Shown one piece after another: positions 34,337 to 60,573 of a DNA stretch of 64,000 nucleotides. The notes below the pieces were generated by a model. The model did no database searches, was not told the DNA's origin, and worked only from the letters and a program-made list of their open reading frames with translations. Positions within the stretch are counted from its first letter, which is position 1. Each line of letters opens with the position of its first letter. Source of the stretch: Rhizophagus irregularis (Eukaryota > Glomeromycota > Glomeromycetes > Glomerales > Glomeraceae); NCBI RefSeq assembly GCF_026210795.1, contig NC_089443.1:2108001-2172000 (forward strand), written 5' to 3'. The translations under genes were made by a program, and so were the position numbers.

Positions 34337-37300
34337 ATGTCTTTGGAACAACCTCTTCCTAAAATTGGTACAAATAATACAAATAATGGCGTTGAACGTC
34401 ATTCACCCCCTTTTATAAATAATTTGACCTGGAACTTTAAAATGGTAAGTACAGAAAGGATTCATGTTTTTTTTTATTTTTGGAATATTACTAATGTTTC
34501 TTTTCGCTTTTTTACTTTAGGGACGGACTCCTGGATTTCAATTTCAGTCTGAAACTCTGGAATGGTGAGTACAGGAGGGGGGATTCATTTTTTTTTTATT
34601 TTTAGAACATTACTAACGTTCCTTTTCACTTTTTTACTTTAGTGACGGACTCCTGGACTTCAATTTCAGCCTGAATCTCTGGAATGGTAGATATAGCACT
34701 AGTCGAAATAAGGCAAATCGGAAATAAGGCAAATCGTCCTTATTTCGGCTAAATTTCGGCTAATAATTGACGATCGTCTGTACATCAGGTGACATTCGGC
34801 ATAGCCGATTTCCGATTTCACTAGTCGAAAAAGGCCGGCCTATATTCAATTAAAAATTCGACCATGATCTACGATTAGACATTGGTCGAATAGTCTAATT
34901 AAACGTCACGCGTTACGCGTATCAAAGTTTAAAAAAGGATCTTTTTTAAACTTTCCCCTTTCATCCCTTCCTTTCACTTCACTTCGTCCCTACTTTTCCC
35001 TGTACTTTCGTCCTTCCCCTCCCTTCCCCTATTGTCTTTTCCTTTCCCTTTCGTCCTTTCCTTGCTTCCCCTTTCGCTCTCCCCCTTTTCTCATACCTTT
35101 CTTCCGCCTCTTTTTCTTGGAAGTAATGTAAGTTTCGTTTCAAAACTTACATATTTTTTTTTAAATTTTTTTTTAATTTATCTTTTTAATTTTAATTAAG
35201 AAACGAATTTTCATTATTTTTTTATAGGACATGTAGAAGGACGCTAGCTTATTCACGAAACTGGACTTTAAGGTAAAAAACAGGAAAGTGAAGTTTGTTA
35301 ATTTAAGAAACGAACTAACGTTTCTTTTCATTATTTTTTTTTGTAGGACGCATAGGAGGATGCCGGCTTTAACACGAAACCGGACTTTAAGGTAAAAAAT
35401 GGGGAAAGGGGAAGGGGAAGGGGATTTAGAACCAAGATTCTTAAGAATCTTGGTTTTTATTTTTTTAATATTTCGGAACGGTTACTAACCGTTCCTTTCT
35501 TTTTTATAGGTTTCGGGCGGGCTTCCTAGTTCTGAAGAATGGAAAAGAACCAAGATTCGTAAGTAAACGAATCTTGGTTTAATTTTTTTTGTTTTTTTTT
35601 TGTAATATTAACGAACAGTTACTAATAACCGTTTTTTTCTTTATTATTTTAGGATTGGGTTGGCTTCTGAGTTCCGAAGAATGGAAAAGAACCAAGATTC
35701 GTAAGTAAACGAATCTTGGTTTAATTTTTTTTGTTTTTTTTTTGTAATATTAACGAACGGTTACTAATAACCGTTTTTTCTTTATTATTTTAGGATTGGG
35801 TTGGCTTCCGAGTTCCGAAGAATGGAAAGAACCAAGTTTTGTAAGTACGAGTACGAAACTTGGTTTATTTTTTATTTTATTTTTTTTCCTATTATATGAA
35901 CGGTTACTAACCGTTCCTTTCTTTTTCTTATAGGTTCGGCCGTTTGGGTGAGTTTCCGAAGAATGGAAAAAAACTAAGATTCTGTACTACGAATCTTAGT
36001 TTTTTTTTCTTTTTTTAATATTTGGAACGGTTATTACTAACCGTTCTTTTTCTTTTATTTTTTATAGGTTCGGTGTCTCAGGAGGGGCTTCCGAGTTCTG
36101 AAAAATGAAAAAAAAACCAAGATTCGTAAGTATATACGAATCATGGTTTTAATTTTGTTTTTTTTTAATTTTATTAATGAACGGTTACTAATAACCGTTC
36201 TTTCTTTTTTTAAGTTCGCGAGTTCCGAAGAACGGAAAAGAACCAAGATTCGTAAGTATATACGAATCTTGGTTTTAATTTTTTTGTTTTGTTTAATTTT
36301 ATTAATGAACGGTTACTAATAACCATTCTTTTCTTTTTTTAGGTTCGGGTGGGCTTTCGATCTTTGGAAAAAGTGGAACCAAGATTCGTAAGTAAGTACG
36401 AATCTTGGTTTAATTTTTTTTATTATTATTATTACGAACGGTTACTAATAACCGTTCTTCTCTTTTTTTTTAGGATCGGGTGGATTTCCGAATTCCGAAG
36501 TACGGAAAAGAACCAAGATTCGTAAGTATATACGAATCTTGGTTTTGTTTTTGTTTTTTTTTTATTATTTGGAATGGTTTACTAACCGTTCTTTTCTTTT
36601 TTTTAGGATCGGGTGGATTTCTGAATTCCGAAGTACGGAAAAGAACCAAGATTCGTAAGTATATACGAATCTTAGTTTTGTTTTTGTTTTTTTTTATTAT
36701 TTGGAACGGTTTACTAACCGTTCCTTTCTTTTATTTTTTAGGTTTCGGGTTGACTTCCGAATTCCGAAGAACGGAAAATCAAGATTCGTAAGTAACTACT
36801 AATTACGAATCTTGATTTTTTTTCTTTTTTTTTAATATTATTAATAAACGGTTACTAATAACCGTTCTTTTCTTTTTTTAGGTTCGGGTGGGCTTCTGAT
36901 CTTTGGAAAAAGTGGAACCAAGATTCGTAAGTAAGTATGAATCTTGGTTTAATTTTTTTATTATTATTATTATGAACAGTTACTAATAACCGTTCTTTTC
37001 TTTTTTTTAGGATCGGGTGGATTTCCGAATTCCGAAGTACGGAAAAGAACCAAGATTCGTAAGTATATACGAATCTTGGTTTTGTTTTTGTTTTTTTTTA
37101 TTATTTGGAACGGTTTACTAACCGTTCTTTCTTTTATTTTTTAGGTTTCGGGTTGACTTCCAAAGATCGGAAGAAAAGGAACCAAGATTTGTAAGTAAGT
37201 ACGAATCTTGGTTTATTTTTTATTTTTATTTTTTATTATTTTGGAACGGGTACTAACTGTTCCTTTCTTTTATTTTATAGGTTCGGGTGGGCTTCCAAGT

Positions 37301-37944
37301 TCTGGAGAACGGAAAAAGATCAAGATTCGTAGGTATATACGAATCTTGTTTAAATTTTTTTCATTAATATTAATGAACGGTTACTAATAACCGTTCTTTT
37401 CTTTTTTTTATAGGTTTGGGTGGTTTTCCGACGAATGGATGAACCAAAACCAAGATTCGTAAGTACGAATCATGGTTTATTTTATTATTATTATTTTATT
37501 ATAATTTTGAATTAGCAATATTTATTTGTAATTTAGATAGATGCTAATAATAATAATATAATTATAAAGTTTTTAAGCATTTAATTAATAAATACATTTA
37601 ATAAATTTGATAATAAAAATTGAAATAAATTCAGAAAAAAATAGTCCGATTTTTGTCCGATTTAAGTTCTGAAGTATATCTAATTGACTGTCCGAATTTA
37701 GTATGATTTAGTTCTGATTTATGTCCAATTTAAGTTCCGAAGTACATCTGATTGGCAGTCAATCGGATAACAATCGGAATATATTTTTTTTGTAAAAATC
37801 GGACATATTTCAGCCGTAATTCGACCTAAAATCGGATATCTGATTTTTAGCCGATTTGCCTTATTTCGACTAGTGAATATTCCCTTTCTTTTTTATCTTT
37901 AAGGACTCTCGTTTACAGTTATTGGATACTGGATTTTAGAATAG
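34337..37944 (+). CDS. Small gene with 44-nt repeated micro-exons, split by a 3.2-kb insertion
   Basis: Exon 1 is 34337-34444 (MSLEQPLPKIGTNNTNNGVE onward), followed by GTAAGT. Exons 2 (34521-34564) and 3 (34643-34686) are 44-nt near-copies separated by 76-78 nt introns with TTACTAAT/TTACTAAC branch-like words and TTTACTTTAG acceptors. Intron 3 would contain the CACTAG-ended element, and exon 4 is 37904-37944. The ORF stays open: exon 2 gives GRTPGFQFQSETLE, exon 3 (read one frame over) gives CDGLLDFNFSLNLWN, and exon 4 ends GYWILE and stop, about 78 residues. More exon-like blocks follow at about 38023-38052. No signal peptide or domain is visible. It is unknown whether a 3.2-kb intron is removed; before the insertion it would have been about 75 nt. 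Confidence 0.42.
34950..35110 (+). other. C/T-rich leader tract upstream of array A
   Basis: Almost pure pyrimidine, made of CCTTTCC/CTTCCC words. The equivalent position in arrays B and C (on their minus strand) also carries a pyrimidine tract, so it is part of the module architecture. It could be transcribed leader or DNA with triplex potential (inference). Confidence 0.6.
35228..37458 (+). repeat. Micro-exon/intron array A (17 exon-like units)
   Basis: Seventeen exon-like blocks of 37-58 nt start at 35228, 35347, 35510, 35653, 35794, 35934, 36068, 36215, 36343, 36474, 36607, 36742, 36882, 37011, 37145, 37281 and 37414. Each is bounded by a TAG/AAG and, in most, a GTAAGT. The 75-130 nt intron-like blocks carry a hairpin across the donor (CCAAGATTC in the exon pairs with GAATCTTGG in the intron, GTAAGT between) and a second hairpin, AACGGTTACTAATAACCGTT, with the branch-like TACTAAT at its centre, followed by a T-rich tract. 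Five blocks are 48 nt and in one frame give (I)GxxSEFRxxEKNQDS. Other lengths shift the frame and bring stops, so protein coding throughout is doubtful. Confidence 0.7.
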
Positions 37945-38089
37945 GGCTGATAGTAAATAGAATAGAAGGAAGTTTTTTTAAATTAGGAACGTTATTAACG
38001 TTTCCTTCTTTTTTTCTTTAGGAACGTGGCTTCTTGGATAATAATATGAACTGTAAGTTAAATGGGTGAAGAAGGAAGATTCTAAATGA

Positions 38090-46250: not shown

Positions 46251-46869
46251 TACAGTTTAAAAAAATTCATAAAAAAATTTTTATTTACGTGTATGAAATT
46301 GTAAAACATAATACAAATAAAATTAATATAAAACTTATAAAACTAAAATTATCATATTACTGGTGAATTTCACTAGAGGTAAATTCACCACTGGTGAATA
46401 TAAAATTAATCCTAAAATCAATATTTGATTAAAATTTTTGATATAAAAATTAATAAATAAAATAACAAAAAAAATCATAAATATTACTTCATCAAGAGCC
46501 CGTCTCATTTTAACAAATGAATACAGTCAGACCCCCATATAGTCACCTAATTGGTTCCCATAAAATCAGTGATTGTATAGGGGTATGCTTATATACAGGT
46601 ACTATATCTTAATTTTGGCCGAAATTAGTAAATTATAATTTATAAAATTATGTGATCACTACGCACAGGTCGAACAGATGTCATTGTCGCAAAATTTGCC
46701 TGGAATTTTTCTGGCAAATTGAGAATTATCCCGGTAAATTGGGGTAAATTGTGTTACAATTTTGGGATAATGGAGGACTTACAATTTGGCAAATTTTGTC
46801 AAAATGGAGGAATTCCTACAGAATTCCTAATTCAAATGTTGAGAAATTTTTCAGTAAATTATCATTAAA

Positions 46870-47420
46870 TTGTGGGAAATTTTAGGCAAATTTTTAGTAA
46901 TGTTATGCAAACGAAGTGTAAATTGTGGTGAATTTAGTTAAATTTTTAGTAATTTTATGCAAACGTAATGTAAATTGTGGTGAATTTAGTCAAATTTTTA
47001 GTAATTTTATGCAAATTGTGGTGAATTTAGTTAATGTTATGCAAACGTAATGCAAATTGTAGTGAATTTAGTCAAATTTTTAGTAATTTTATGCAAACGT
47101 AATGCAAATTGTGGTGAATTTAGTCAAATTTTTAGTAATGTTATGTAAACAAAGTGCAAATTGTGGTGAATTTAGTTAAATTTTTAGTAATGTTATGTAA
47201 ACAAAGTGCAAATTGTGGTGAATTTAGTCAAATTTTTAGTAATTTTATGCAAACGTAATGCAAATTGTGGTGAATTTAGTTAAATTTTTAGTAATTTTAT
47301 GCAAATTGTGGTGAATTTAGTTAATGTTATGTAAACGAAGTGCAAATTGTGGTGAATTTTTAGCAATATTAGGCCAATGTTATGTAAATTGTGATGAATT
47401 TTTTGTAATGATATGTAAAT
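46870..47420. repeat. About 52-bp minisatellite (element B)
   Basis: Units read TTTTAGTAATTTTATGCAAA then CGTAATGCAAATTGTGGTGA and ATTTAGTCAAA, with length variants missing the middle part. About ten units. The same array is at 56870-57540. Confidence 0.8.
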
Positions 47421-47810: not shown

Positions 47811-49510
47811 TTCGAAACTCACCAAGCAAGGAGCCAAAAAACAATCTAACTTGTTACAATAATCTACAAAAAAAGAAAACCATTCAGTTAGAATGTTTCT
47901 TAAAGATAAAACAGAAGTTTCGTAACGAAACATACGAAACTTACCATTTCAGAAGCCATATCCAATACCTGAACGTAAAGTAATGGCTTATATTCAACAA
48001 TGGTTTTACGAGATTCACGTTTCCTAAGTTAGCTTCCCAGATATCCCTGAACCTACAAAAAAGAAAAGGAACGTTAGTAAACGGTCCTAATAAAAAAAAA
48101 TTTAAGTTTCATGATATTTGTCGCGAAACTCACCATTTAAACTGAAGTTTCAAGTTATACTTCAAAACCTACACGTTATCCAAACCCAAGTTCGAATCTG
48201 GAGGGAGGGACCTACAAAGAGAATAAAGAAATGTTAATAAAACATTTCTTTAAAAAACAAACTGAAGTTTCGCAACGTTTTTTTTGTTGCGAAACTTACC
48301 AAAGTCAAGTATCCCGCTCGAACCTACAAAAAAAAATAGAAAAGAAATGTTAAAAAACGTTTCTAATAATAATAAAAAAACACGGTAAGTTTCGTTGCGA
48401 AACTTACCATTTTCACTTTCCAATGATACCCGAATTGGAGACCTACAAGAAATGAAAAAGTAAAAGAAACGTTAAAACGTTTCTTAATTAAAAAAAACAA
48501 AAAAGATAAGTTTCGTTAATGAAACGAAACTTACATTTTTCTGTTTCGGAATCCTGGAGCACCGGAACCTACAAAAAAAGTAGAAGAAACGTTAGAGAAC
48601 ATTTTTTAATTAAAAAGAAAATAAAATATTTTAAGTTTCATTAAAACGAAACTTACATGTTGACGTTTCGGAATCTTGGAGTACTGGAACTTACAAAAAA
48701 AAAGTAAAAGAAACGTTAAAACGTTTCTTAATTAAAAAAAATATAATATAATAAGTTTCGTTAAAACGAAACTTACATTTTCCGTTTCGGGAATCCTGGA
48801 ACACCGGAACCACCGAACCTACAAAAAGTAAAAGAAACGTTATAGAACGTTTTTAATTAAAAAAAACTATAATATAAGTTTCGTTAAAACGAAACTTACA
48901 TTTCCGTTTTGGCCATTAATGAATATTCATGCTGAAACTTGGCGTTCTCCTGGACCTACAAAAAAAAAGTAAAAGAAACGTTAGAACGTTTCTTAATTAA
49001 AAAAAAAATAAAAATATAAGAAGTTTCGTTAAACGAAACTTACATTTTGCCGTTTCAGAAACCTGGAGTACCGGAACTTACAAAAAAAGTAAAAGAAACG
49101 TTAGAACGTTTCTTAATTAAAAAAAATATAATATAATAAGTTTCGTTAAAATGAAACTTACATTTTCCGTTTCGGGAATCCTGGAGCACCAGAACTACCG
49201 AACCTACAAAAAAAGTAAAAGAAACGTTATGAACGTTTCTTTAATTAAAAAAAAATATAATATAAGTTTCGTTAAAACGAAACTTACATTTCCGTTTTGG
49301 CCATTAATGAATATTCATGCTGAAACTTGGCGTTCTCCTAGACCTACAAAAAAAAAGTAAAAGAAACGTTAGAACGTTTCTTAATTAAAAAAAAAATAAA
49401 AATATAAGAAGTTTCGTTAAACGAAACTTACATTTTGCCGTTTCAGAAACCTGGAGTACCGGAACCTACAAAAATAAAGTAAAAGAAACGTTAAAACGTT
49501 TCTTAATAAA
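47811..49510 (-). repeat. Micro-exon/intron array B, about 13 units
   Basis: Read on the minus strand, exon-like blocks of mostly 34-56 nt (one of about 108) end at GTAAGTTTCG and begin after TTTTTTTGTAG. In the 49.0-49.5 kb part they are GTTCCGGTACTCCAGGTTTC-type blocks. Each intron-like block starts with a hairpin, AAGTTTCGTT/AACGAAACTT, immediately after the GT and holds a second hairpin, GAAACGTTCTAACGTTTC, containing the branch-like TTCTAAC, then a T-rich tract and AG. The hairpin halves vary together between units. The array contains a local tandem duplication (a block near 48.9-49.1 repeated near 49.3-49.45 kb). Confidence 0.7.
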
Positions 49511-49594
49511 GAAAAAAATAAAAAAAAAAATAGTTTCATAAGACAACAAACTTTACCTAACTTCCAAATGTAACGATAATTGCCATACCAACGG

Positions 49595-49839: not shown

Positions 49840-49885
49840 ATGTCACGTGATACACGTGATATGTATTTTATATAAATAGGGGGCT
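49840..49885 (-). promoter_or_regulatory. Paired CACGTG boxes and TATA-like element, copy B
   Basis: Two CACGTG E-boxes (49844-49849 and 49853-49858) next to TTTATATAAATAGG (about 49868-49881). On the minus strand the TATA word TTATATAAAAT lies upstream of the array, so it could drive it. The plus reading, TATATAAATAGG, points into the 95-nt motif instead. Conserved at 60343-60380. Direction is undecided. Confidence 0.5.
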
Positions 49886-49988
49886 TTTCCCTGAAACTTT
49901 TTTTTTTCTTTTTTTATAATTTTTTTAATTTAATGATAGATGTATATATATACATATATATATACATATATATCTATCTATCTAATAA

Positions 49989-50083
49989 ACTTTACGAAAA
50001 GCCCCTCCTCTGTAAACAGGTAGAGGCCATAAAGTACCTATAGGGGGAGAGCCATTGCTGCTCCCTCCGCCTGTTTATAGTGA
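49989..50083 (+). ncRNA. 95-nt conserved structured motif, copy B
   Basis: Differs from 60479-60573 at one base while the flanks have diverged. A long-range stem pairs CTGTAAACAGG (50010-50020) with CCTGTTTATAG (50070-50080). The single difference between copies changes G-C to G.U in plus-strand RNA. Other possible stems: GAAAAGCCCC with GGGGCTTTTC at 49880-49889, CCTCT with AGAGG, and GGGAG with CTCCC. No known ribozyme or tRNA core is recognised. Calling it an RNA is inference; it could be a protein- or transposase-binding DNA site. Confidence 0.45.
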
Positions 50084-51409: not shown

Positions 51410-52965
51410 TTGGCGGCTCGAAATGGTAGCTTGGAGGCTCGAGCCAGTTATTAGGCTCAGTTCAAAAAGCTCGAGCCTGTAACAGACTTGGCTCAAAAAG
51501 CTCGAGCTAGTTCATGAACCAAATGAGCTATTATACAAAAAATGTTGCGAAACGTTTTTATATAATAATGCATGTATAAACGAAACGTTTTCGCAACTTT
51601 TTTTCATTGTTTATTAAAAAACGTTGCGAAAACGTTTATTTAAGTTTTTACATGTAAAATTGAAAAAAAAATGCCAGAACTAATGATTCTGGCGCTTTTA
51701 CATGTAAAATTGAAAAAAAAATGCTGGAACTAATGATTCCAGCGTTTTTACATGTAAAATTGAAAAAAAAACACTGGAACTAATGATTCTGGCGTTTTTA
51801 CATGTAAAATTGAAAAAAACACTGGAACTAATAGTTTTGGCATTTTTACATGTAAAATCAAAAAGAAACCGCTGGAACTAATAATTCTGGCGTTTTTACA
51901 TGTAAAATCGAAAAAAAATGCCAGAACTAATGATTCCAGCATTTTTACATGTAAAATCGAAAAAAAAATGCCGAAACTATCAGTTTCGGCGTTTTTACAT
52001 GTAAAATCAAAAAGAAAAACACTGGAACTAATGATTCCGGCATTTTTACATGTAAAATCAAAAAAAACGCCGAAACTAATAGTTTTGGCATTTTTACATA
52101 TAAAACTAAAAAGAAATACGTTGGAACCAATTATTCCAGCGCTTTTACATGTAAAATCAAAACAAAATGCCGGAACTAATAGTTTCAGCGTTTTTACATG
52201 TAAAATCAAAAAGAAACCGCTGGAACTAATAATTCCGGCATTTTTACATGTAAAATTGAAAAAAATGCCAGAACTAATAATTCTGGCATTTTTACATGTA
52301 AAATAGAAAAAAAATGCCAAAACTATCAGTTTCGGCGGTTTTACATGTAAAATCAAAAAGAAAAATGCCAGAACTAATGATTCCGGCATTTTTACATGTA
52401 AAATTGAAAAAAAACGCCAAAACTATCAGTTTCGGCATTTTTACATGTAAAATCGAAAAAAAATGCCAAAACTATCAGTTTCGGCGTTTTTACATGTAAA
52501 ATCAAAAAGAAAAATGCCAGAACTAATGATTCTGGCGTTTACATGTAAAATTGAAAAAAAACACCGAAACTAATGGTTTCAGCGTTTTTACATGTAAAAT
52601 CAAAAAGAAATACGCCAGAACCAATTATTCCGGCGCTTTTACATGTATAATCGGAAAAAAAAATGCCGAAACTATCTGTTTCGGCGTTTTTACATGTAAA
52701 ATTAAAAGAAATACGCCGAAACTATCAGTTTCAGCGTTTTTACATGTAAAATCAAAAGGAAAAACGCTGAAACAAATAGTTTCAGCGTTTTATATAAATA
52801 TAAAAGTAAAAAACATTTCGCAACATTTTTTTTAATAATTTAAAATAAAAATGTTGCGAAAACGTTTTTATAATAAAGCTCGAGCCAGCTCGAGCCCAGC
52901 TTGGCTCAAACCAGGATTTTCATGGCTCAGCTTGACTCGAACTGAGCTGAGCTAAGATTTTTATT
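51410..52965. mobile_element. Probable element around the hairpin minisatellite, GCTCGAG-word flanks
   Basis: Clusters of GCTCGAGCC and GGCTCA words flank the minisatellite at 51410-51530 and 52875-52965 in opposite orientation. It lies inside the pogo-like element to the right of element B. Ends and TSD not resolved. Confidence 0.4.
51540..52870. repeat. Hairpin minisatellite, about 20 units of about 58 bp
   Basis: Each unit has two palindromes: TTTTACATGTAAAA, and an imperfect stem such as GCCAGAACTAATGATTCTGGC. The arms of the second stem change together: GCTGGAAC with GATTCCAGC, GCCGAAACT with AGTTTCGGC, GCCAGAAC with ATTCTGGC. The array is bounded by GTTGCGAAAACG words in inverted order. 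Long ORFs on both strands (213 codons minus, 112 plus) are repeat by-products with a 19-20 residue period (FTCKNAGI / LHVKSK). Confidence 0.75.
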
Positions 52966-56633: not shown

Positions 56634-56869
56634 CACAGGTCAAACAGATGTCATTGTCGCAAAATTTGCCTGGAATTTTTCTGGCAAATTGAGAATTATC
56701 CCAGTAAATTGGGGTAAATTGTGTTACAATTTTGGGATAATGGAGGACTTACAATTTGGCAAATTTTGTCAAAATGGCAGAATTCCTACAGAATTCCTAA
56801 TTCAAATGTTGAGAAATTTTTCAGTAAATTATCATTAAATTGTGGGAAATTTTAGGCAAATTTTTAGTA

Positions 56870-57540
56870 ATGTTATGCAAACGAAGTGTAAATTGTGGTG
56901 AATTTAGTCAAATTTTTAGTAATTTTATGTAAACGTAATGCAAATTGTGGTGAATTTAGTTAATGTTATGCAAACGTAATGCAAATTGTGGTGAATTTGG
57001 TCAAATTTTTTGTAATTTTATGCAAACGTAATGCAAATTGTGGTGAATTTAGTCAAATTTTTAGTAATTTTATGCAAACGTAATGCAAATTGTGGTGAAT
57101 TTAGTCAAATTTTTAGTAATTTTATGTAAACATAATGCAAATTGTGGTGAATTTAGTTAATTTTATGCAAACGTAATGCAAATTGTGGTGAATTTAGTCA
57201 AATTTTTAGTAATTTTATGTAAACATAATGCAAATTGTGGTGAATTTAGTTAATGTTATGCAAATGTAATGCAAATTGTGGTGAATTTAGTCAAATTTTT
57301 AGTAATTTTATGTAAACGTAATGCAAATTGTGGTGAATTTAGTTAATGTTATGCAAATGTAATGCAAATTGTGGTGAATTTAGTCAAATTTTTAGTAATT
57401 TTATGTAAACGTAATGCAAATTGTGGTGAATTTAGTTAATGTTATGCAAACGTAATGCAAATTGTGGTGAATTTAGTCAAATTTTTAGTAATTTTATGCA
57501 AACGTAATGTAAATTGTGGTGAATTTTTTGTAATGATACG
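56870..57540. repeat. About 52-bp minisatellite (element C)
   Basis: Same units as 46870-47420 (TTTTAGTAATTTTATGCAAA, CGTAATGCAAATTGTGGTGA), about 12 copies with a different order of long and short variants from copy B. Confidence 0.8.
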
Positions 57541-57899
57541 TAAATTGCAAATTTAAAATAAAAATTTTCCATTGTTACACAATTTACCAGAAAAATTTTG
57601 GTAAATTGTGCATTTTTTTGTCAAATTTTGGAAAAATGGACCATTTTACCAAAATTTAACTTTCAAATGCTAGAAAAATTTTAACAATTTTAGACAATTG
57701 AGTGACAATGGTTTGATAATTTTTGGACAATTGAGTGCAAATGCAATATTTTTAAGACAATTTCTGACAATTGAGTGATAATTAAGCAACAATTTTATGT
57801 AATTTTATGCAAATTTTATAACAATTTATTGATTCAATTTATCTAATTATTCAATTATAACGTGTAATTAAGTACAATAAAACAAACATCAAAAAAAAA

Positions 57900-59965
57900 A
57901 AAAAGTTTCGAAGGTTAAATCTTCGAAACTCACCAAGCAAAGAAACAAAAGGACTAATATCTTGTTACAATAACCTACAAAAAAGAAAACCATTCAGTTA
58001 GAATGTTTCTTAAAGAGTAAAACAGAAGTTTCGTAACAAAACGTACGAAACTTACCATTTCGGAAGCCATATCCAATACCTGAACGGAAAGTAATGGCTT
58101 CTATTCAACAAAGCTTCCCAGATATCCCCGAACCTACAAAAAATAAAAGGAACGTTAGTAAACAGTTCCTAATAAAAAAATCAAAAAAAATTGTTTCGTG
58201 ATATTTGTCACGAAACTCACCATTTAAACTGAAGTTTCAAAGTTATACTTTGAAACCTACACGTTATCAAACCCAAGATCGAAGCTGGAGGGGAGGGAGC
58301 TCCAAATTGATCAGACTCCCAAAATTGAAGAATTGCAATCTACAAAAAAAGAGAGAAACGTTAGAACGTTTCTTAAAAAAATTAATAAAAAAAAAATTAA
58401 AGTCTCGTAACATTTTTGTTGCGAAACTTACCAAAATCAAGTATCCAGCTCGAACCTACAAAAAAAAAATAGAAAAGAAACGTTAAAAAATGTTTCTAAT
58501 AATAAAAAAACACGGTAAGTTTCATTGTGAAACTTACCGTTATCACTTTCCAATGATACCCGACTTGGAGAACTACAAGAAAAGAAAAGTAAAAGAAATG
58601 TTAGAACGTTTCTTAATTAAAAAAAAAACAAAATAGATTAAGTTTCGCTAAAACGAAACTTACATGTTGACGTTTCAGAATCTTAGAGTACCGGAACCTA
58701 CAAAAAAAAAAGTTAAAAGAAACGTTAGAACGTTTCTTAATTAAAAAAAAAACAAAATATATTAAGTTTCGTTAAACGAAACTTACATTTATTCTGGAGC
58801 AGCACCGGAACCTATAACAAAAAGTAAAAGAAACGTTAGAACGTTTCTTAATTAAAAAAAAAAATATATAATGTTTCGTTAAGCTTGTTAAACGAAACTT
58901 ACATTTTGCCCGTTTCGAAATCCTGGAGCACCGGAACCTACAAAAAAGAATAAAGAACGTTAGTATTTAGTAACGTTCCTTTTAAAAATAAAAAAAAAGA
59001 ATCGAAGTTTCAAAACGAAACTTCGAAACCTAACCATCCAATATCAGAAGGAATCCAGAGTGTATCTACAAAAAAAAGAAGAAACGTTAGCTAACGTTTT
59101 TTAAAAAAAAAATTTAATAAAATTAAGTTTTGCAACGCAACGTTGCGAAACTTACCGGTTCATTTCGATTCCATCATCCAAACGTCTGGCGTTCCTACAA
59201 AAAGAAAAAGGAAACTTAGAAAACGTTTCCTTACAAAAAATTAAAAAAAAAATTAAAAGTTTCAAAGCGAAACGCTTCGAAACTTACCCTTCGGTTTCTC
59301 GTTTCCCAAAGCCAAACCACCAAAAATTCTATAAAAAAAAAGAAAGAAAACGTCAGTATGTTTCCTAAAAACAATTTAGAAAAAAAAGTTTCGAGGCGAA
59401 CGCCTCGAAACTTACCCTTTCGTTTTCCTAAGTCGAGTATGCCAAAAAAACCTATAAAAAAAAGAATTATTGGAAACGTTAGTAATGTTTCCTAAAAATA
59501 GAAAATTAAACTATTTTTTTAAAAAAGTTTCGAGGTGAACGCCTCGAAACTTACCGTTTCGTTTTCCAAGTTGAATACGCCGAAAATTCTATAAAAAAAA
59601 GAAGATATAGGAAACGTTAGAAACGTTTCCTAAAAAATAAAAATTAAAAATTAAAGTTTCGAATCAAAATGATTCGAAACTTACCTACTTCCCGAAGTCG
59701 AATACCAAAAACCTACACAAAAGAAAATAAAGGATCGTTAAAAACGTTCCTTATAAAAGTAAAAAAAAAAAATTTAAAGTTTCGAAGCGAAACGCTTCGA
59801 AACTTACCATAATTCAGTTCGTTTCCCAAAGTCAAAACATCGAAAATCCTACAAAAAAGAAAGAAAGGAAACGTTAGAAACGTTTCCTTACAACAAGGAA
59901 TTAAAGAAAAAAAAATTAAATTTAAAAAAGTTTTGAAGCGTTTCGCTTCGAAACTTACCATTGTT
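57900..59965 (-). repeat. Micro-exon/intron array C, about 17 units
   Basis: The minus reading starts with an exon-like block ending AGAAAAACAATG, then GTAAGTTTCGAAGCG, and continues with blocks such as 59807-59850 and 59684-59712 separated by introns with a donor hairpin (AAGTTTCG...CGAAACTT) and GGAAACGTTTCTAACGTTTCC-type branch hairpins, T tract and TAG. The low-coordinate end repeats the units of array B almost exactly (47.8-48.4 versus 57.9-58.5 kb). Block 59684-59712 would end in TAG just before its donor, so an uninterrupted ORF is unlikely. Confidence 0.68.
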
Positions 59966-60245: not shown

Positions 60246-60342
60246 AAGGCCGTAGAAAAAAAAATTAAACTTTTGCTAAAAAAAGCTTAATTTTTTTTTT
60301 CGTTATACCGCAGCTGAAGCTGCGGTAATTATTAAGTAATAT

Positions 60343-60380
60343 CACGTGACGCACGTGATATATAATTTTATATAAATAGG
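60343..60380 (-). promoter_or_regulatory. Paired CACGTG boxes and TATA-like element, copy C
   Basis: CACGTG at 60343-60348 and 60352-60357, then TTTATATAAATAGG at about 60367-60380; spacing as in copy B. A CAGCTGAAGCTG patch just outside replaces the CTGCGG repeats of copy B. Confidence 0.5.
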
Positions 60381-60478
60381 GGCTTTCCCCGCCCCGGAAT
60401 TTTTTTTTTTATTTTAATAATTTTAAATAGATGTATATATATGCTTATATATATATATATATATATCTATTAACTAAT

Positions 60479-60573
60479 ACTTTACGAAAAGCCCCTCCTC
60501 TGTAAACAGGTAGAGGCCATAAAGTACCTATAGGGGGAGAGCCATTGCTGCTCCCTCCGCCTGTTTACAGTGA
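60479..60573 (+). ncRNA. 95-nt conserved structured motif, copy C
   Basis: Same 95 nt as 49989-50083 apart from one base. Here CTGTAAACAGG (60500-60510) and CCTGTTTACAG (60560-60570) pair perfectly. Upstream GGGGCTTT near 60380 can still pair with AAAGCCCC. Function unknown. Confidence 0.45.

Follow-up and report, generated by a model that had tools for sequence, protein, structure and literature searches.

A tandem array of hairpin introns and micro-exons, probably spliced and noncoding, within a CACTA-type transposon of Rhizophagus irregularis

A 64,000-nucleotide stretch of the Rhizophagus irregularis genome (RefSeq assembly GCF_026210795.1, contig NC_089443.1, positions 2,108,001 to 2,172,000, forward strand; the whole stretch is called the window here) contains a CACTA-type element with a chain of short introns and very short exons inside it. 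An intron caller whose score takes in the donor and branch words, the pyrimidine tract, the acceptor and local stems found 17 introns at 35128-37413 together with 17 exons of 14-58 nt, and a weak eighteenth intron call begins at 37459. The exon lengths over 35228-37458 are, in order, 45, 45, 49, 48, 47, 14, 58, 37, 45, 48, 48, 46, 45, 48, 46, 48 and 45 nt. The initial annotation had placed 17 micro-exons at 35228..37458, and direct reading and parsing confirmed both the coordinates and the count; its exon range of 37-58 nt holds for 16 of the 17, but not for a 14-nt exon that results from the GTGAGT donor called in intron 7. A strict two-hairpin scan was also run, which demands a donor stem, a branch stem, a pyrimidine tract and AG. 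The features of the element are as follows.

34697..37875, plus strand: non-autonomous CACTA-type element with array, 3,179 bp (perfect inverted ends; sister elements elsewhere have the same ends)
34697..34719, plus strand: left terminal inverted repeat CACTAGTCGAAATAAGGCAAATC (68 exact genome places)
34950..35119, plus strand: C/T-rich leader upstream of intron 1, a putative promoter or 5' leader (sequence; limits approximate)
35128..35227, plus strand: intron 1, with intron-only donor hairpin GTAAGTTTCG..AAACTTAC (intron caller)
35228..35272, plus strand: exon 1 of the chain, 45 nt (intron caller)
35273..35346, plus strand: intron 2, GTAAAAAA donor without strong donor stem, branch hairpin only (intron caller)
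35392..35509, plus strand: intron 3, GTAAAAAA donor without strong donor stem, internal donor-like hairpin without GTAAGT (sequence, intron caller)
35559..35652, plus strand: intron 4, donor hairpin strong, branch hairpin weaker, outside the strict scan (intron caller)
35701..35793, plus strand: intron 5, two hairpins (caller and strict scan)
35841..35933, plus strand: intron 6, two hairpins, both donor-stem arms changed (CCAAGTTTT/AAACTTGG) (caller and strict scan)
35948..36067, plus strand: intron 7, usual donor lost (GATTCTGTACTACGAATC), GTGAGT called, 14 nt into the exon (intron caller)
36126..36214, plus strand: intron 8, acceptor AAG (36214) (intron caller)
36252..36342, plus strand: intron 9, two hairpins (caller and strict scan)
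36388..36473, plus strand: intron 10, two hairpins (caller, strict scan, folding)
36522..36606, plus strand: intron 11, two hairpins (caller, strict scan, folding)
36655..36741, plus strand: intron 12, two hairpins (caller, strict scan, folding)
36788..36881, plus strand: intron 13, two hairpins (caller and strict scan)
36927..37010, plus strand: intron 14, two hairpins (caller and strict scan)
37059..37144, plus strand: intron 15, two hairpins (caller, strict scan, folding)
37191..37280, plus strand: intron 16, two hairpins (caller and strict scan)
37329..37413, plus strand: intron 17, two hairpins, GTAGGT donor (caller and strict scan)
37414..37458, plus strand: last exon of the chain, 45 nt (intron caller)
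37448..37479, plus strand: lone donor hairpin, no convincing downstream acceptor (intron caller)
37853..37875, minus strand: right terminal inverted repeat, the matching inverted copy of the left end

The called introns share one plan, consisting of a GTAAGT-type donor, a branch word, a T-rich tract and AG, and most donors and branch words of the array lie in hairpins. In a typical donor hairpin, the last 9-15 exon bases pair with intron bases ~8-25, and GTAAGT forms the tip; the exon end CCAAGATTC pairs with intron GAATCTTGG. A second hairpin in each typical intron, AACGGTTACTAATAACCGTT, carries the branch word TACTAAC/T at its tip. Six introns were folded singly, four of them from this array (introns 10, 11, 12 and 15), and these four gave -29.1 to -33.3 kcal/mol with z of -6.2 to -8.3, values equalled by 0 of 200 shuffles. 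The donor stem and branch hairpin that the initial annotation described for each unit are therefore real by folding, but introns 1-3 (35128, 35273, 35392) depart from the exon-end donor-stem pattern. The strict scan found 32 introns in the 64-kb window, 11 in this array (plus strand) and 21 in two minus-strand arrays elsewhere in it; it found none in the reversed sequence, in the reverse of the complement or in 12 block-wise dinucleotide shuffles. Exon bodies (n=187) fold no better than shuffles (mean z -0.16), and the same holds for the spliced chain. A third hairpin in the exon body (TTCCG..CGGAA in some exons) was rejected for lack of excess folding, and Rfam gave no match at the gathering threshold in the window.

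After the lone donor hairpin at the end of the chain, only a weak call follows (score 15.4, no branch hairpin), both in the window element and in 5 of 7 sister elements. Arrays of this family and of a second one in the window, described below, end in a donor hairpin that lacks a convincing acceptor and is followed by a T-rich stretch (37448-37479; about 57890-57933), a possible 3'-end signal. C/T-rich tracts similar to the leader upstream of intron 1 are found upstream of the arrays near 60 kb and 50 kb.

The perfect 23-bp inverted ends of the window element start with CACTAG, and the exact end CACTAGTCGAAATAAGGCAAATC occurs at 68 places genome-wide (reversed control, 0). Forty-two of these copies make 21 close pairs; the remaining 26 are single ends or wider pairs, and the two inspected loci among them, L038 and L048, also hold arrays. 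The 21 close pairs correspond to 8 short elements (1.8-3.2 kb, window copy included) and 13 long ones (6.6-7.2 kb). Every short element has 4-12 strict hairpin introns and 8-18 called introns (n=8), and the 13 long elements have no strict hairpin intron. Matches to PF02992 (tnp2) lie inside 9 of the 13 long elements in a scoring that took in 150 of 393 candidates, and two of these were confirmed by Pfam; no Pfam match came from the ORFs (open reading frames) of one long copy, L025. Of their first 40 bases, long and short elements have 38-39 in common in matching orientation (four long copies compared). CACTA elements generate a 3-bp target site duplication on insertion, and an exact 3-bp duplication is present at 5 of the 8 short and 9 of the 13 long elements, with a chance match of 0.03. 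Because short elements with the same ends carry arrays while the long ones, which lack arrays, mostly match tnp2, the array-carrying element is well supported as a non-autonomous CACTA (EnSpm/CMC-type) DNA transposon of Rhizophagus irregularis. The initial annotation had proposed a possible satellite that copies itself as exon plus intron. The units, with structured donor and branch, do repeat in this way in a fungus, but what copies them is a DNA transposon of CACTA type, whose copies differ in unit number; neither this vehicle nor the two-hairpin design with other stems in the second window family had been part of that annotation.

A second subfamily of elements, with ends like CACTAGTCGAAAAAGGAATATTCGG, also carries arrays (L040-L043, L047, L054), and one form of its left end occurs at 17 exact places. 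A transposase and an array within one element were considered for the L040 and L041 stretches and rejected, since the PF02992 matches fall outside the elements bounded by TIRs (terminal inverted repeats). TIRs were not found for the array loci L039, L049-L053, L055 and L056. Exact searches of the genome returned 378 matches to exon-end-type donor hairpins, 626 to a second donor type whose stem lies in the intron only (a count that takes fully palindromic copies on both strands), and 360 places for the 20-mer branch palindrome, with 0 for each reversed pattern. The intron-only type is also present in the window. Forty loci (L019-L058) were picked for palindromes or TIRs, so that their density is no sample; all 27 of them other than long elements contain strict hairpin introns. 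Among five random 5-kb stretches, a sample too small for a density estimate, one (L061) contained 6 strict hairpin introns.

The stems show covariation. For the intron-only donor type, the search pattern constrained no more than the outer portion of each arm, and 60 distinct listed hairpins were analysed. Inner pair 1 is Watson-Crick in 50 of 52 usable hairpins (A-T 21, C-G 16, T-A 13), compared with a mean of 17.9 and a maximum of 33 when partners were shuffled 2,000 times. Inner pairs 2 and 3 also lie above the shuffle maximum (43/45 vs 39; 33/41 vs 28), and inner pairs 4 and 5 do not (21/34 vs 26; 13/19 vs 14). When right arms were swapped between units, the stem score fell in 2,521 of 3,561 swaps and rose in 785 for exon-end donors, fell in 2,963 of 3,837 and rose in 783 for intron-only donors, and fell in 2,412 of 3,724 and rose in 567 for branch stems. 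In an unfitted count of exon-end donors, cells with both arms changed pair in 89 cases and fail in 10. Arm changes from C to T (79) and from G to A (94) occur in nearly equal numbers, which fits an absence of current selection. Present-day selection on the stems through a wobble preference is not supported, as the leaning seen in fitted-stem counts is gone in the unfitted count. Since changes in both arms compensate each other while single-arm changes mostly break the pair, structure was kept while units and subfamilies diverged, and recent single-copy changes look unselected. A single covariance model for both stem types contained zero base pairs and was not used. CpG sites vary ~four to ten times more than others (0.17-0.37 vs 0.02-0.07; 11 aligned elements), as expected if the copies are methylated.

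Public gene models offer an indirect view of the proposed splicing. With the spliced ORF of the window element as query, 109 predicted proteins matched, 108 from R. irregularis and one from R. diaphanus, and a profile search matched 222; all 120 among the matches listed are from Rhizophagus. The best 14 of the 109 models were mapped to array loci, each at least 94% covered, and both ends lie exactly where structure predicts in 99 of their 162 junctions. In another 25, the donor lies 4 bases downstream of the prediction, and 20 of these are in GTAAGTAAGT or GTAAGTAC. The word GTAAGTAAGT consists of two overlapping donors 4 bases apart and is frequent at L020, L031, L040, L043, L054 and other array loci; use of the +4 donor would switch the reading frame. 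According to excerpts of PMC6123716, the 2018 R. irregularis annotation of the same strain used RNA-seq intron hints, and genes went into the standard submission only if expression, homology or motifs supported them. The matching RIR_jg models presumably come from this 2018 set; the prefix itself is absent from the PMC6123716 text. The assembly GCA_026210795.1 is that of R. irregularis DAOM197198, and part of PMC10234402 describes its annotation as drawing on Illumina and Nanopore RNA reads. We note that agreement with the models is support and not proof, because gene finders also choose donors that keep the frame open.

Introns of actin and actin-related (Arp) genes served as a control, a small sample of one gene family. 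The padded strict scan found no hairpin intron and no strong donor stem in ten stretches around these introns, and branch stems in 2 of the 10; as a positive control, 11 of 11 window introns were recovered when cut to similar short stretches. The donor and branch words of the actin/Arp introns are weaker than those of the array. We consider it likely that the array is transcribed and spliced.

We believe that the window array is probably a spliced, noncoding intron array, carried as cargo by a non-autonomous CACTA transposon and multiplied by transposition and unit duplication. Since the frame tests described below speak on the whole against coding and neither exon bodies nor the chain show excess folding, the array looks most like a noncoding transcript with structure confined to the splice signals. 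Transcription of the element would start from the C/T-rich leader, and the chain would be spliced into a noncoding RNA of, very roughly, 0.7-0.9 kb for the window copy. Multiplication of the array may take two routes, in which the whole element transposes and exon-intron units inside it undergo unequal exchange. The most tentative part concerns the hairpins: their tips would hold each 5' splice site and branch site, folded locally, and local folding might stop pairing with the near-identical arms and T tracts of neighboring units, so that the insulated sites would let exons of ~45 nt be recognized. Insulation of each splice site from near-identical neighbors is the most likely role for the hairpins, at a modest probability.

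Several observations weigh against parts of this interpretation. No exact target duplication flanks the window copy (TAG/AAT). Among the 162 model junctions, 17 match the prediction at neither end, 10 at the acceptor alone and 3 at the donor alone, and 8 are unsolved; two models of one locus (P0002 and P0003 on L031) disagree on several introns, and the public models may be partly ab initio. In the unfitted count of exon-end donors, one-arm changes keep the pair in 45 cases and break it in 100. From a mixed alignment in which 47 introns fall into two stem registers, RNAalifold returned no common pair. The initial annotation had named decay of stems at the same rate as loops as refuting its reading, and the outcome is divided. 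Arm changes are compensated between units and subfamilies, but in 11 copies that share 88-98% identity with the window element, stems show no clear advantage in conservation over the rest: non-CpG divergence is 0.036 in donor stems, 0.033 in branch stems and 0.039 in intron spacers, and 0.063 in exons, 0.066 in donor loops, 0.021 in branch loops and 0.023 in the left end region. Finally, the longest ORFs of the spliced chains exceed the shuffled-exon-order mean in 6 of 8 elements. The ORF of L027 is matched by only 3 of 500 shuffles, and those of the other seven by 32 to 243 of 500; these eight ranks are not independent, because the elements share ancestry.

This slight ORF excess, a possible weak coding signal, bears on the alternative that the array is a protein-coding micro-exon gene family, in which the exons would code for short basic repeats and a choice among exons would give variable proteins. 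This alternative agrees with the 109 and 222 matching public proteins, some with several isoforms (RIR_jg29739 t3, t4 and t6), and with the prevalence of exon lengths divisible by 3 (97 of 197 distinct exons, with 49 and 51 in the other two remainder classes). Nevertheless, 100 of the 197 are not multiples of 3, and the longest ORFs, at 104-178 amino acids, stay inside the shuffled range, with none above the shuffled maximum. Exons contain fewer stop triplets than shuffles do (172 vs 237), but we rejected this as a sign of coding, since the antisense strand is depleted even more strongly (121 vs 210) and the depletion hence reflects composition. By a count of peptide motifs, all three frames of the repeat unit occur within 51 of the 109 models, and neither exon symmetry nor frame conservation between copies was found. 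Because the reading frame is not conserved, the predicted array proteins are probably spurious, and we regard a coding family as unlikely. Slightly more doubtful still is that the palindromes are features of the DNA, arising from template switching, arm conversion or a use in transposition, with incidental splice-like words and no splicing. Quasi-palindrome correction can restore perfect palindromes and could explain the palindrome-restoring arm changes, and the recent single changes (C>T 79, G>A 94) show no preference for RNA pairs. This account leaves unexplained why donor, branch, pyrimidine tract and AG stand in order in both families despite different stems, why public models join at the predicted sites, and why the palindromes are centered on splice words and not on exon bodies.

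The two other alternatives both seem to us quite improbable. If the single hairpin intron were the mobile unit, spreading into genes as a classical introner with arrays as by-products, one would understand the hundreds of similar introns spread over many loci (378 and 626 exact matches to the two donor types) and why some listed donor hairpins have no close neighbor among the matches listed; introner families, moreover, often have DNA-transposon TIRs or target duplications, according to sections of PMC9860276. The array loci inspected are, on the contrary, tandem chains, in many cases within TIR-bounded elements, and no such intron was found in the ten actin/Arp intron stretches. The remaining alternative is a decoy or shield, in which optimal introns engage the spliceosome and the transcript escapes small-RNA silencing triggered by poor splicing. 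Spliceosome-coupled RNA interference acts against transposons in Cryptococcus, and the array signals are nearer to consensus than those of the sampled actin/Arp introns; the long partner elements (9 of 13 with a transposase match), however, carry no such introns.

A broader reading of the spliced, noncoding array is a tentative one, and we hold it possible rather than probable: intron-array transposons would form a class of mobile elements, their cargo having evolved into a chain of optimized, hairpin-presented spliceosomal introns around noncoding micro-exons, with array splicing under selection and the design spread over at least two repeat families and several Rhizophagus subfamilies. If so, selected array splicing could, for example, keep the transcript from silencing or set the fate of nuclear RNA. 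The array joins non-autonomous CACTA transposons, intron multiplication and RNA structure at splice sites, which are usually separate topics. With hundreds of introns of one design, natural variants in stems and loops, and published Illumina and Nanopore RNA reads, the effect of hairpins on splicing could be tested directly. For many of the 222 matching predicted proteins in public databases, the analysis points to transposon RNA that gene-finding software may have translated.

The element resembles non-autonomous CACTA/EnSpm (CMC) transposons in its CACTAG ends, in the 3-bp duplications of many copies and in the tnp2 matches of long elements with the same ends, but its cargo is a hairpin-intron chain with micro-exons and not a deleted transposase gene or simple filler. 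Schistosome micro-exon genes, which encode secreted proteins, are also chains of very short exons; their exons are symmetric, unlike those of the array, where 100 of 197 distinct exons have lengths that 3 does not divide. The initial annotation knew of no described fungal system of this form. Symmetric fungal introner-like introns have been published (PMC8469720, in part), so that the statement can hold only for arrays of this form. Those introner-like elements and symmetric stwintrons form, in the sections concerned, families in which similar spliceosomal introns have a symmetric sequence that can fold. They lie singly at new gene positions, whereas the array introns stand in tandem inside a transposon and have two local hairpins, at donor and branch, with a donor stem that is often partly exonic. 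The introners of diverse eukaryotes in PMC9860276 (in part) share the link between TIR transposons and introns; there an element becomes one intron, and here one transposon carries many. The main text of PMC9860276 contains no occurrence of 'Glomero' or 'Rhizophagus', and we recognized no paper on an exon-intron satellite or hairpin-intron array of Glomeromycotina among the results listed by searches of the open-access literature. The SP7-like effector genes of R. irregularis (PMC11333574, in part) are a repeat-bearing family of the same fungus, and were rejected as an identity for the array because their architecture differs.

The second array family in the window occurs in two copies.

57975..59958, minus strand: second array family, with intron-only donor hairpins and a branch hairpin such as AAGAAACGTTCTAACGTTTCTT (strict scan)
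47864..49556, minus strand: second copy of this family (strict scan)

Its donor stem is GTAAGTTTCG..CGAAACTT and its branch stem is AAGAAACGTTCTAACGTTTCTT. Intron 1 of the window CACTA element is of this intron-only hairpin type, which links the two families. The two copies (57.9-60.6 kb and 46.7-50.1 kb, minus strand) have heads that are 86% identical and start with CACTGTAAACAG or CACTATAAACAG, and one 26-mer of the head has 44 exact genome copies. The comparison of heads and hairpins covered the six copies on contigs C1-C3 and the first on C4, each of which lies upstream of intron-only donor hairpins on the same strand; such hairpins are also listed without a head nearby. The right end of this family was not found. 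The shared head module (49843-50083 and 60342-60573, minus strand) contains an internal inverted repeat CTGTAAACAG..CTGTTTACAG, a TATA-like CTATTTATATAAA and CACGTG, and is a possible promoter cassette. Downstream of both copies are 52-bp tandem repeats (46867-47419 and 56837-57526), possibly subterminal repeats. About 22 copies of a 50-bp unit, GTTTTTACATGTAAAATTGAAAAAAAAATGCCGGAACTAATGATTCCGGC, with short inverted repeats, occupy 51644-52791 of the window.

The CACTA element itself splits an older chain of 44-nt exons (GGACGGACTCCTGGATTTCAATTTCAG..), which lies at 34340-34690 and 37876-38053. This chain has introns resembling the branch-hairpin type and an opening ATG exon with no signal peptide by eye, and its GTAGAT donor-like site directly precedes the element.

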